From Halobacteriovorax sp. JY17 (lineage in GTDB: Bacteria; Bdellovibrionota; Bacteriovoracia; Bacteriovoracales; Bacteriovoracaceae), in assembly GCF_002753895.1 (NCBI RefSeq), contig NZ_NJER01000004.1, positions 124,001 to 188,000 of the forward strand: DNA of 64,000 bases, in the 5' to 3' direction. Shown piece after piece: positions 29,397-34,468 of the stretch. Within the stretch, counting starts at the first letter, position 1; every line of letters starts with the position of its first letter. The position numbers were made by a program, and so were the translations under genes. The notes below the pieces were generated by a model, which searched no databases, was not told the origin of the DNA, and was given only the letters and a program-made list of their open reading frames with translations.

Positions 29397-30221
29397 ATGA
29401 AAACAAGAATTACACCAACACCAAATGGGCATTTACATTTAGGAAATATCTTCAACTTTATTCATATTGCGAGTGAAGCTAGTAGGCTAGGCTTGAAGAT
29501 TGCTTTAAGAATTGATGATCACGATAACGAGCGTTGTAAAGATGAGTATATCGATGAGATCTTTAGAGCACTTCATCTTTTGAAAATTAATATTGATGAG
29601 GGGCCCTCATCAACTGATGATTTTAATCGTAATTATTCTCAGACTTTAAGGAAAGACTTATATAAATCTTATCTAGAGAAGATTGAAGATCAATTTTATT
29701 GTGAGTGCTCTAGAAAAGAGGTCTTTGAAAGAAACTCTTTAGGAGTTTATACTGGTTTTTGTAAGACTAAGAATCTAAGCTTTAAAGCTAATAAGAGCTG
29801 TACAAGATATGATTGCCCCAGGGAAATTATTAAGTTTGAGAGTCGAGAAGTTGATGTGAAAAACTCGATTGGAGATATCGTACTTTGGAGAAAAGAAGAT
29901 ATTCCTTCTTATCAATTAGTTAGTGTTTGTGATGATATTGAAATGAATATCTCTCATATTTTTAGAGGGGAGGATTTAATTTATTCTTCTGCTATACAAT
30001 TACTTATTGCAAAAAGTATGAAACAAGATTTTATAAAGAAAGAGAATATTTATCATCACCAATTAGTAACCCTTGAAGGGGAAAAGCTTTCAAAATCAAG
30101 GAAGAGTGAGGGAGCAATAGAGCTACTAGAGAGTGATCCTAAGAGAGTCTTTCGTGAATATTCTCTTTTCATGAATAAGCATGTATCTGAAAACCTTGAA
30201 GAACTTATTTCAAATCAGTAA
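29397..30221 (+). CDS. Divergent glutamyl-Q-tRNA(Asp)-synthetase-like protein
   Basis: A 274-residue class I synthetase catalytic domain with no anticodon-binding domain, like GluQ-RS (YadB). It has the HIGH-type motif HLHLGN (12-17), KLSKS (230-234) and a Zn site CECS...YTGFC near residues 100-120, where C-x-C then Y-x3-C is the GluQ-RS pattern. The usual APSPTG start is TPTPNG and the RIED motif is RIDD, so it is diverged. GluQ-RS puts glutamate on queuosine of tRNA(Asp); this protein may do that or supply an activated amino acid. A palindromic spacer separates it from the GH3 operon. Confidence 0.75.
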   Translation: MKTRITPTPNGHLHLGNIFNFIHIASEASRLGLKIALRIDDHDNERCKDEYIDEIFRALHLLKINIDEGPSSTDDFNRNYSQTLRKDLYKSYLEKIEDQFYCECSRKEVFERNSLGVYTGFCKTKNLSFKANKSCTRYDCPREIIKFESREVDVKNSIGDIVLWRKEDIPSYQLVSVCDDIEMNISHIFRGEDLIYSSAIQLLIAKSMKQDFIKKENIYHHQLVTLEGEKLSKSRKSEGAIELLESDPKRVFREYSLFMNKHVSENLEELISNQ

Positions 30222-30223
30222 AA

Positions 30224-30258
30224 ACTTTTGACAGAAATGGGCCATTTTTGTCAAAAGT
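30224..30258. promoter_or_regulatory. 35-bp palindrome between the GluQ-like gene and the GH3 operon
   Basis: ACTTTTGACA (30224-30233) and TGTCAAAAGT (30249-30258), with inner AAATGG/CCATTT also pairing, form a nearly perfect palindrome starting 3 bp after the stop codon. It is followed by GGTCTTTTT, so it may be a terminator. Its TTTTGACA half-sites recur just downstream, which also fits a regulator site. Confidence 0.6.
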
Positions 30259-30263
30259 AGGTC

Positions 30264-30276
30264 TTTTTGACAAAAA
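30264..30276. promoter_or_regulatory. Palindrome TTTTTGACAAAAA, possible -35 or operator
   Basis: A 13-bp symmetric site containing TTGACA, the consensus -35 hexamer, 83 bp before the GH3 start. It repeats the half-site of the palindrome just upstream; a weaker copy, CGTCAAGAG, follows near 30288. No clear -10 is found at 16-18 bp. Confidence 0.4.
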
Positions 30277-30358
30277 CTCAGAGAAATCGTCAAGAGTCTA
30301 AAGTGTAAACATAAATTCTCTTTGCTAGTTTCATCCTGCAAACAAACTTGGAGGATTT

Positions 30359-31873
30359 ATGAAACAAATTAAAAAGACTATTTCAAAATTTATTCTTAAC
30401 AACATGTACTTAAAGATCTCTCTTGATCAAGAGAGCATGCAGTTAAAGCAGGAAGAGAATTTTCAAGAGTTAAAAAATAAATTAAGAAATACAGATATTT
30501 CCATTGATCATAATTTAGATAAGATTGCCACTTATACTGACTTTATTCAAAGTGTAGAACCTTCTGAATATGGTAAGTTCTCATCGTATGTAGAAAGTCT
30601 AGTGAATGAAGAAGATAGAGTTCTCTTTAGAAATGGGGTTAAGTACTTCGGACTTACTTCTGGAACAAGTGGACAGGACAGCAAGAGAGTTCCATATAAC
30701 GCTGATATGATTGATATTTTTAAACGTGCTCAAAAATATCAAGCAAGCGTCATTAATCACTCGATAGCAGGGATTGATTTAGTAAACTCTTCGAGATTAA
30801 GCTACGGTTCGACTCCCAAGAATTATACTTCTAATGGAGTTGAGTACGGTTATATTTCAGGTATATTAAGTGCCCAAACACCAAAGATGCTAAAGAAAGT
30901 GACTTTCCCTTCTCAGGAAGTTCTAGAGATAGAAGACTGGGAACTCAAGCTTGAAAAGATCTTAAAGCAGAGTTTAAATGAGGATATAAGAATCGCTTCT
31001 GCAATTCCTACTTATCTAATCGCTATCTTTGAAGAAATATTAAAGAGAACAAATAAGAAATATATCAAAGATATTTGGCCGAATCTTGAAACTATAATCT
31101 ATGGCGCGACTCCAATAGATTCTTACCGTGAGAGATTAAATAACTTAGTTGGAAAGAGGTTAAATTACTTTGGAGTATACGCATCGACGGAAGCCCCTAT
31201 TGGAATCGGAATTAATAACGCAAAAGATGAGAAACAACTTTATGCCTTTAATCCAGATTTAATCTATAGCTTTACTAAAATAGATTTAACCTCATCCCTT
31301 TCAATTGGAGATGTTAAGGAAGGGGAAGAGTATTTACTTAATATTACGACACCAAATGGTTTTTTAAATTATACGATGAAAGATATAGTACGAATCAAAT
31401 CAGTTTCTCCTATCTTAACATTTGAAATTCTTGGAAGACAGGGAAGTGGAATTAATCTTGGAGCTGAAAAGACAAGTGATCAGCAGGTTTTAGATACAGT
31501 CGTAAAGTTTAATCAAGCTCAAGGTGTGACCCTAGATCATTACTTTCTCTCTCCTGGAGTGAGAAATGGAAAGGTTTGCTATAAGTGGACTTTATTTTCA
31601 AATAATCTAAATGATTCCGAAGAAGTATATGCTCAACTATTGGACCGTGCCTTGTCTGAATGTAACCCTGACTATCTTGACTGTAGAGATTTGAATATCA
31701 TTGATTTACCTGTGGTTGAGATTGTGACTTCTGATATTTTGGATGATTACTTTTCAAAATATAGAGAAAAGGGACAATTTAAAATGAAGACTGTTTTTTC
31801 TTGCGCCGATTCATTCAATGGATTCATTAACTCCGTTCTTCCGGAACTGAGTCTTGCAAGGTCAATTGCATGA
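30359..31873 (+). CDS. GH3-family acyl-acid amido synthetase
   Basis: A 504-residue protein matching the GH3 (auxin-responsive) family of acyl-adenylating enzymes: ATP loop TSGTSGQDSKRVPY (TSGTSG at residues 100-105), the middle YFGVYASTEAPIGI (about 268-281), NYTMKDIVRI and the EILGRQGSGINLGAEKTSD motif that shapes the C-terminal cap. GH3 enzymes form acyl-AMP and transfer the acyl group to an amino acid amine. The ATG follows GGAGG. It overlaps the LysE gene by 4 bp, so product export by that gene is a reasonable inference. The acid and amine are unknown. Confidence 0.8.
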   Translation: MKQIKKTISKFILNNMYLKISLDQESMQLKQEENFQELKNKLRNTDISIDHNLDKIATYTDFIQSVEPSEYGKFSSYVESLVNEEDRVLFRNGVKYFGLTSGTSGQDSKRVPYNADMIDIFKRAQKYQASVINHSIAGIDLVNSSRLSYGSTPKNYTSNGVEYGYISGILSAQTPKMLKKVTFPSQEVLEIEDWELKLEKILKQSLNEDIRIASAIPTYLIAIFEEILKRTNKKYIKDIWPNLETIIYGATPIDSYRERLNNLVGKRLNYFGVYASTEAPIGIGINNAKDEKQLYAFNPDLIYSFTKIDLTSSLSIGDVKEGEEYLLNITTPNGFLNYTMKDIVRIKSVSPILTFEILGRQGSGINLGAEKTSDQQVLDTVVKFNQAQGVTLDHYFLSPGVRNGKVCYKWTLFSNNLNDSEEVYAQLLDRALSECNPDYLDCRDLNIIDLPVVEIVTSDILDDYFSKYREKGQFKMKTVFSCADSFNGFINSVLPELSLARSIA

Positions 31874-32469
31874 TTACTTCTATTGTGATTTTAGGCCTTC
31901 TTTGTGGGGTGATTTTTACCCTACCTATTGGGCCTGCGGGAATTAGTATTGTTGACTCTTATTTAAGTAAGGGAAGGGCAGTCGCATTGAAAGGTTTCTT
32001 AGGACTTCTTCTTGTTGAAATTATCTACCTACAGATTTCTTATCTTGTGTATAAAGCTAAGATGGTAGATTCCTTTATCGAAAATAAGTTTCAACTAACA
32101 ATTATCTTTGCCTGTGTCCTAACTTTTATTGGGATAAGTTTCTTACTTTCTAAAGGTCGTAAGGACTTAAACTTGCCATCTGGATTTAAAGGAGTTTTTT
32201 CTTTAACAATAATTAATCCGAGCTTAGTACTTACATATATAGCATTGATTGCTCTATATGAAGACTTCTTTGGTAGAGAAATTTCTGCGAATTACTTCAT
32301 CTTGGGAGCGAGTTCAATGATTACAGGAGTCGGAAGTACTCTAGGGGCCCTCTCTCTCTTAGCAAAGACGAAAGAGAAATTTATCTCGCATCACTTAGTG
32401 AGAATTAAAAAGACCTTTGGAATATTATTTATAACAACAGCAATTTGCTCTCTTGGAGGAGCTTTATGA
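31870..32469 (+). CDS. LysE-type amino acid exporter
   Basis: A 199-residue membrane protein with about six helices. The first carries GVIFTLPIGPAGI, the G-x-x-x-x-x-P-I-G-P motif of LysE/RhtB exporters, and the fourth has a conserved NPSL loop. LysE proteins export amino acids or derivatives by proton exchange. It is coupled by 4-bp ATGA overlaps to the genes on both sides, so it should export the product of the GH3 enzyme or its amino-acid precursor. This substrate link is inference. Confidence 0.8.
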   Translation: MITSIVILGLLCGVIFTLPIGPAGISIVDSYLSKGRAVALKGFLGLLLVEIIYLQISYLVYKAKMVDSFIENKFQLTIIFACVLTFIGISFLLSKGRKDLNLPSGFKGVFSLTIINPSLVLTYIALIALYEDFFGREISANYFILGASSMITGVGSTLGALSLLAKTKEKFISHHLVRIKKTFGILFITTAICSLGGAL

Positions 32470-34418
32470 AATATTTATTAATGCTAATTTTACTTTTATC
32501 AAAAAATATTTATGCCTACGAATGTAGTTTAGAAAAAGAGAGCAAAGGAAATACTCTTAAGACTTGTTCTATAAAAGGTAAGAAGGTTAAGTTCTTAAGT
32601 GTAGATGGCACAATGGAAGATCTCGCTTATTATCATGGACTTTTTATGCCCGAAGACGTGACTAAAGGAGTACTCGCTTCGGTCCAACAAAGAAGAGATG
32701 AGTCGTTAGCTGCACTCTCTAGCAAGGATAGAAGACAGTTTTCAATTATTTATCAATGTATGATGAGCAAGTATAGAAAATCTGTGTCAATAGAATTTTT
32801 AAAGGAATTGAATGCCCTCGCTCGAGGAGTCCGCGATGGAGGCTTTAGTCTAGAAGGGAAAGATGTTGTTGAAGCAACACTTATGATTGAAATGTCTGGC
32901 TTTGTTGATTCCTTAAACCTTGAAATGGAACAAGACAAGAGGGGAGCTAATTGGGAGCTTATAAAAGGCTGCGGATTTCGTCTTGCAAGTGGAGCTATTA
33001 AAAATGTTTTTAGAAGTGTAGGGAAAACGTTTAAGAAAATGAAGAAAGGCTGTACTGGATTTACTGCGCCAAGCTCCATTTCATCAAATGGAAGTCACTT
33101 ACACGGAAGAAACTTTGATACGGGGTTCTTAGGTGTTTTTGAAAAATATCCGGTTATTATTCATCATAAGAATAGTGAAGGTGTAAATTATATGGGAATG
33201 AGCTCTGCTGGACTTCATTATCCTGGTGGAATTTCAGGAATGAATGAATACGGTATTTCTATTTCAACTCACGAGCTTAGAACTAAGAACTATAAAGTGA
33301 AGTATAAAGATAGAGTTGGAGTTGTTGCCCCTTACGCCGCAAATTATATTCTCTCTCGTGCAAAGACTTTGGATGAGGCCATTTCTATAGGGAAATCATT
33401 TGGATACTTTGGAGCTTGGAGTTTTTTAATTTCAGACTCTAAGAGTGGGGAGAGTGTGAGTCTTGAGATATCTGGAGATGTTGTTAGGGTTGCTAAGAGA
33501 GACTCTGCTCATGGAATGGGACAGAGTAATCACTTTCTTCACCCTGATACAAGTCGAGACAATTATGAATATAGTATAAATAAGAGTTTGGAATCTAGAG
33601 CGAGACTTAGTTTAGTAGAATCAGAGTTGGAAAAATCAAGTGGAAGTATTGATATTCAGTGGGGAATCGACCTTCTCTCTGGGCATAATGACTTTCTAAT
33701 GGGAAAGAGAAGTTTTGGAAGAACAATTTCTAAAGTCTATACTTCCATGACTCATATTATGGATACTAAGAATCATATTTTTTGGTTTTCTCTTGGAGAA
33801 AGTTATCCAACAAATTTATCAACCTTTCTTGGTCTGAAGATTGATTACAGTAAAGCAGGCGACTTCTTTCAATTTGCAGGAGAGTCAAGTAACTCAATTC
33901 TAGAAGATTCGTCTTGGAAGAATTCTCTAGAGTTATATACGCAAGCGTATTTAGCCTATGATCATGAAAGAGATAGAAAAAAGAAATTAGTAAATACCTA
34001 CCGCTTACTTACTCGTGCAAATATCTTAAGTCTTGAAGATCATCACTTTGAATTTCCATATGAACTTATGAGAGTAAGGGTGGGATTAAAGTTATTATCA
34101 GAGTTTCCTTCTGAAGTTGATAGTTTTGAAATCTTAGAGGGGTTGAATACACTACTATTAAATATAGAATCACTACATGATTATGAGAAATCTCAAGTGT
34201 ATGAAGATTTGGCAAAGTTCTATGACCTTACTGGGCAGAGAAAGAGGGCCTCTGAAAATTTTAGAAAATCAATTTCTTATTTAGAAGAACTTAGAGAGAG
34301 TTTTTTAGGTCATCATTATTTGAATAAATTATATTGGACCAACTTTTGGTTTATAGAAAATACTTATTCTAAGTACGATAATTTTAGAGAAGAGTTGCAT
34401 TTTGCAACTGTTGAATAA
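32466..34418 (+). CDS. Secreted C45/acyl-CoA:6-APA acyltransferase-like Ntn hydrolase
   Basis: A 650-residue protein with signal peptide MKYLLMLILLLSKNIYAY. Residues 40-190 look like the helical proregion of C45 enzymes. The autocleavage site is KKGCTGF, with Cys196 as the predicted N-terminal nucleophile after processing. It is followed by GSHLHGRNFDT and MSSAGLHYPGGISGMNEYGIS, the hallmarks of isopenicillin N acyltransferase-like Ntn hydrolases. The last 200 residues are helical, TPR-like (SQVYEDLAKFYDLTGQRKRAS). It cleaves or transfers an acyl group at an amide bond, probably in the periplasm. The ATG overlaps the LysE stop by 4 bp. Confidence 0.8.
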   Translation: MKYLLMLILLLSKNIYAYECSLEKESKGNTLKTCSIKGKKVKFLSVDGTMEDLAYYHGLFMPEDVTKGVLASVQQRRDESLAALSSKDRRQFSIIYQCMMSKYRKSVSIEFLKELNALARGVRDGGFSLEGKDVVEATLMIEMSGFVDSLNLEMEQDKRGANWELIKGCGFRLASGAIKNVFRSVGKTFKKMKKGCTGFTAPSSISSNGSHLHGRNFDTGFLGVFEKYPVIIHHKNSEGVNYMGMSSAGLHYPGGISGMNEYGISISTHELRTKNYKVKYKDRVGVVAPYAANYILSRAKTLDEAISIGKSFGYFGAWSFLISDSKSGESVSLEISGDVVRVAKRDSAHGMGQSNHFLHPDTSRDNYEYSINKSLESRARLSLVESELEKSSGSIDIQWGIDLLSGHNDFLMGKRSFGRTISKVYTSMTHIMDTKNHIFWFSLGESYPTNLSTFLGLKIDYSKAGDFFQFAGESSNSILEDSSWKNSLELYTQAYLAYDHERDRKKKLVNTYRLLTRANILSLEDHHFEFPYELMRVRVGLKLLSEFPSEVDSFEILEGLNTLLLNIESLHDYEKSQVYEDLAKFYDLTGQRKRASENFRKSISYLEELRESFLGHHYLNKLYWTNFWFIENTYSKYDNFREELHFATVE

Positions 34419-34432
34419 CCAAGTTTGCGCTG

Positions 34433-34468
34433 AGGGAGTACATATTATGTGTACTCCCTTATTTTCTT
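34433..34468 (+). terminator. Terminator of the GH3-LysE-C45 operon
   Basis: Perfect 10-bp arms AGGGAGTACA / TGTACTCCCT with a 7-nt loop, followed by TATTTTCTT. It lies 15 bp after the last stop of the operon, next to the stop of the convergent reductase. Confidence 0.8.

Follow-up and report, generated by a model that had tools for sequence, protein, structure and literature searches.

A conserved, operator-linked GH3–LysE–C45 gene set in Bdellovibrionota: a possible N-acyl-amide pathway across the inner membrane

What could unite an acyl-adenylating GH3 enzyme, an amino-acid-type exporter and a putatively secreted Ntn hydrolase in one tightly packed gene set? The question arises from a locus of Halobacteriovorax sp. 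JY17, located within a 64,000-nucleotide stretch of DNA that was analysed as a whole (hereafter, the window). The three genes, all on the + strand, encode a 504-aa GH3 acyl-adenylating amide synthetase (30359–31873), a 199-aa LysE-type exporter (31870–32469) and a 650-aa C45 Ntn proenzyme (32466–34418). Both joints consist of 4-bp ATGA overlaps, as an earlier, sequence-only reading of this DNA had claimed. Ribosome-binding sites (GGAGG) precede the GH3 and C45 genes, and a weaker AAGG precedes the LysE gene. A terminator-like hairpin of 14 pairs followed by a T-rich tract (34431–34461, + strand) may be common to the trio and the convergent gene; note that the number of terminator-like sites found in the region is close to chance expectation (3 vs 2.8). 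A role in anti-phage defence was rejected, PADLOC giving no match for the GH3, the LysE-type or the C45 protein.

We first consider whether the three family assignments hold. The GH3 call does: the window protein scores 78.5 bits against the Pfam GH3 profile (curated cut-off 23.6), it also reaches the GH3_M and GH3_C profiles, and its predicted model (pLDDT 81) matches the plant GH3 protein JAR1 (E 1.3e-22). Motif I, which binds nucleotide (TSGTSG), is present, as are equivalents of motifs II and III; they are kept as TSGTSGxDSK, YAxTE and NGxxNYxMKD in Bacteriovorax-type members and as SGT(S/T)GKDSK, YAATE and NGxxHYSMKD-type forms in Bdellovibrio. Trio GH3 proteins group in one clade that excludes the 15 other GH3 proteins compared (support 100/99). 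Membership of the window protein in the OlsH family was rejected, the OlsH model giving 157.6 bits where the equivalog cut-off is 620; the B. bacteriovorus GH3 reaches 182.7 bits on the same model. The phylum's other GH3 genes have MMPL-family transporters as neighbours or form fusions with a fatty acid hydroxylase, a context that speaks for fatty acyl substrates.

For the exporter, the LysE assignment stands through its orthologs rather than through the window protein, which taken alone scores 13.2 bits with Pfam, below the cut-off of 25.6. A PxGP motif is present. Eight orthologs tested in the same gene order score 28.3–43.2 bits, above that cut-off; the LysE proteins of two further genomes, G160 and G364, were undetected by the Pfam LysE profile.

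The C45 assignment was confirmed by two profiles, NCBIfam NF040521 (106.4 bits, cut-off 85) and Pfam AAT (33.9 bits, cut-off 23.2). The protein is laid out as a signal sequence, a prosegment of ~195 residues, a catalytic domain and a helical C-terminal part; its signal sequence and four invariant cysteines would suit a periplasmic protein. Self-cleavage is predicted between Gly195 and Cys196, leaving Cys196 (codon at 33051–33053, + strand) as the predicted nucleophile. This prediction of the earlier reading agrees with both sequence and fold: the G195–C196 pair is invariant in 17/17 aligned trio-type C45 proteins, which likewise all keep C196, R215, D218, N260 and N355, and in the predicted model (mean pLDDT 75) C196 aligns with the nucleophile at residue 1 or 2 of many solved mature Ntn hydrolases. 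In bile salt hydrolases, penicillin V acylase and NAAA, the position aligned with residue 196 is the first catalytic one. Among solved structures, the precursor of acyl-CoA:isopenicillin N acyltransferase lies nearest (2x1c; Z 26.9, rmsd 3.1 over 340 residues); the AHL acylase MacQ, acid ceramidase and NAAA are also structurally close.

Is the trio more than a local arrangement? Within the class, the complete trio in this order is present in 7 of 129 genomes. Across 369 Bdellovibrionota genomes, a trio-type GH3 occurs in 27 (E 1.3e-79 or better) and a trio-type C45 in exactly the same 27. In 23 of these, GH3 and C45 stand in tandem with a LysE-sized gap, counting one genome in which the LysE and C45 genes are fused; the order recurs in 23 genomes of several families, which sets chance aside. 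Carriers belong to ten of 182 genera in one phylum, so the 27 co-occurrences are not 27 independent events; perfect coincidence of two ten-genus sets would have a chance probability of ~1e-16, if genera were independent. The genes that flank the trio in the window recur only in its nearest relative, G043, and flanks differ between lineages, the trio order being found in Bacteriovorax-type and in Bdellovibrio genomes. The earlier reading had named loss of gene order in relatives, or failure of the GH3 and C45 profiles, as outcomes that would speak against it; the order is conserved and both profiles match.

Scanning genome contigs with conserved GH3 peptides recovered named Bdellovibrio records; in one of them, B. 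bacteriovorus kdesi, a divergent TetR-family gene stands ahead of GH3-LysE-C45. Matches were confined to Bdellovibrionota, which is no proof of absence elsewhere because a scan by exact peptide patterns overlooks relatives at about 34% identity. No match was found in the viral contigs searched. Plasmid GH3 matches were distant (22–25%), those of Bernardetia and Bacteroides having no LysE or C45 gene beside them, and the C45 search of plasmids gave short partial matches only.

Some genomes depart from the common layout. In G361, GH3 adjoins C45 in tandem without a gap, and the stretch read contains no LysE; in three genomes (G143, G364 and G360), GH3 and C45 are on separate contigs or divergent. 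In G336, LysE and C45 form one 811-aa frame (L117:5161–7596, − strand); a profile built from the LysE proteins of the other trios recognises its LysE part (54.5 bits, E 6.8e-14). Its last LysE helix continues into the C45 proenzyme, without a separate signal peptide, and so stands in the place of the C45 signal peptide. This fusion physically ties the carrier to the periplasmic enzyme, in a single genome and with an assembly error possible.

Upstream of the window GH3 gene lie two copies of a 27-bp putative operator, TTGACA-N15-TGTCAA (30228–30254, 12/12) and TTGACA-N15-CGTCAA (30267–30293, 11/12), the first being the only exact match in the 3.47-Mb window genome. Just ahead of them, at 29397–30221 (+ strand), is a GluQRS-like tRNA synthetase paralog scoring under the family cut-offs (143/277 bits). 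The 27-bp motif or a close form of it was found upstream of 20/20 inspected trio GH3 genes, mostly in two copies about 39–42 bp apart; the copy in G360 falls at the start of the initially called GH3 frame. Where C45 is separated from GH3 (G143, G364 and G360), it has an operator of its own (shuffles as good: 0.01, 0.003 and 0, respectively). We considered TTGACA as a −35 element and rejected it, because no −10 element was seen by eye at the usual distance in the window and because the site stays with C45 when that gene is apart from GH3.

A scan of the 369 genomes for the tandem operator matched 27 genomes, and a reversed-pattern control matched 0. Of these matches, 18 are at the trio, 5 beside the same TetR-family gene in trio-less genomes, 2 before a penicillin amidase (G037 and G038, 460 bits) and 2 not assigned to any of these groups. 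Single exact sites (e.g. in G044, G056 and G361 C17) precede unrelated genes and look like chance or are ambiguous. One such site in G361 (L201:5261–5287), flanked by the genes for an alpha/beta hydrolase (−) and a secreted protein (+), may also be chance. The TetR-family gene adjoins the trio in most genomes and has a conserved putative operator upstream of itself; G043 lacks it beside the trio, and no copy was detectable in any contig of the window genome, which keeps both operators. The TetR gene and the operator, usually present twice, complete the trio unit; the earlier reading had missed both. In the trio-less genus g14, a penicillin-amidase-family acylase preceded by this tandem operator was noted at L175:6607–8802 (+) and L176:3671–5866 (−).

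Taken together, the conserved order, the 27/27 co-occurrence, the fusion, the shared operator, the trio-specific GH3 clade and the catalytic residues give good support to the linkage of the three genes that the sequence-only reading had proposed as a make-export-process pathway; its other element, an N-acyl amino acid product, we infer from GH3/OlsH chemistry and the C45 amidase fold. Our leading interpretation, to which we give a little less than even weight, is a dedicated pathway for an N-acyl amide, spanning the inner membrane and controlled by a repressor. By family chemistry, the GH3 enzyme would use ATP in the cytoplasm to activate a carboxylic acid, most likely a fatty acid, and would couple this acid to an amine or an amino acid. 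The LysE-type carrier would then move the conjugate to the periplasm, a coupling to which the fusion and gene order point. There, the secreted C45 proenzyme, after predicted self-cleavage before Cys196, would strip the acyl group or pass it to another acceptor, as fold and catalytic residues suggest, so that a free or re-acylated product would appear outside the inner membrane. In most relatives, the TetR-family regulator would bind the tandem operators and control both the trio genes and itself. The tandem operator beside the TetR-family gene in five trio-less genomes and ahead of a penicillin amidase in G037 and G038 also speaks for this pathway, as do OlsH as the nearest characterised GH3 enzyme, the C45 fold, the signal sequence with the four invariant cysteines, and the neighbours and fusions of other GH3 genes in the phylum. 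Several observations count against this pathway. Small amino acids are the normal cargo of LysE carriers, for which a conjugate with a long acyl chain would be unusual; GH3-C45 occurs without LysE in G361; and no signal peptide is evident on the G037/G038 amidase, which may therefore reside elsewhere. More tentatively, and with somewhat lower confidence than for the pathway itself, we suggest that these predatory bacteria may have an undescribed N-acyl amino acid system under repressor control. A molecule would carry an acyl mask inside the cell and, once exported to the periplasm, would lose it or be trans-acylated through a C45 enzyme coupled to the transporter; the product, a signal, a lipid or a toxic compound, might be tied to the predatory lifestyle.

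Three known systems resemble parts of this pathway. OlsH of the planctomycete Singulisphaera acidiphila has been demonstrated to make N-acyl ornithine using ATP; beyond planctomycetes, the authors of that work anticipate other amino acids (PMC12493201). The OlsH/OlsI ornithine-lipid pathway is alike in placing a bacterial GH3 in an operon with an acyl-handling partner; it differs in that the partner OlsI is an alpha/beta hydrolase, and no exporter or C45 enzyme is described (PMC12493201). The window operon has no OlsI alpha/beta hydrolase, and LysE and C45 stand there instead. The pyoverdine precursor is acylated before export. The Ntn hydrolase PvdQ deacylates it in the periplasm (PMC5474475), a precedent for the periplasmic Ntn deacylation that the proposed pathway would share. 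Pyoverdine is, however, a peptide siderophore served by another acylating enzyme and another exporter, and PvdQ is of the penicillin-amidase type whereas the trio acylase is C45; a penicillin-amidase-type acylase is not part of the trio unit and occurs only under the same operator in G037/G038. Isopenicillin N acyltransferase (C45), acid ceramidase and NAAA share the precursor fold, cleave themselves before Cys as predicted for the trio C45, and act on N-acyl amides, but they are about 12–16% identical to the trio C45, lack its extra C-terminal helical part and belong to eukaryotic or antibiotic-making contexts. We found no description of the GH3-LysE-C45(-TetR) combination, including in Bdellovibrio, in the open-licence literature searched; each of the families is known by itself. 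If the reading above is right, the model predator Bdellovibrio bacteriovorus has a compact pathway, conserved and under joint regulation, in which a GH3 enzyme of the recently recognised bacterial type works together with an exporter and a periplasmic Ntn enzyme. The operator offers a handle on the conditions that induce the genes, and what GH3 enzymes of bacteria other than planctomycetes produce becomes a directly testable question.

The same genes could serve scavenging or quenching: C45 would cleave external N-acyl amides (AHLs, N-acyl amino acids, prey lipids) in the periplasm, GH3 would re-conjugate or detoxify the acid, LysE would export surplus amino product and TetR would sense an acyl compound. 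The closeness of the C45 fold to amidases and to MacQ, and the operator before a penicillin-amidase-type acylase in two genomes, fit such a role, but a GH3 gene in the same transcript is not needed for it and the LysE-C45 fusion is not readily explained; we regard it as unlikely. Rather improbable, in our judgement, is aminolipid assembly, in which GH3 would make a lyso-aminolipid as OlsH does, LysE would flip it and C45 would act as a periplasmic acyltransferase adding or moving a chain to give a membrane lipid. OlsH is the nearest characterised GH3, C45 includes true acyltransferases, and the MMPL and hydroxylase contexts of other GH3 genes in the phylum agree with lipid chemistry; against it stand the OlsH cut-off, missed by far, the operon without an OlsI-type hydrolase and the want of a known acyl donor for a periplasmic transferase. 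That the three are neighbours of operon convenience with unrelated jobs, as varying flanks and the LysE-free G361 locus might suggest, is very improbable given the 27/27 co-occurrence, the fusion and the operators that stay with separated C45 genes.

Two further GH3 loci were noted in passing. At L053:4853–10651 (−), a fatty acid hydroxylase-GH3 fusion is followed by an enolase-superfamily gene and an MMPL transporter. The window genome has a second GH3 gene (L034:8619–10175, +), grouped with a Rieske oxygenase and a hexapeptide-repeat transferase.
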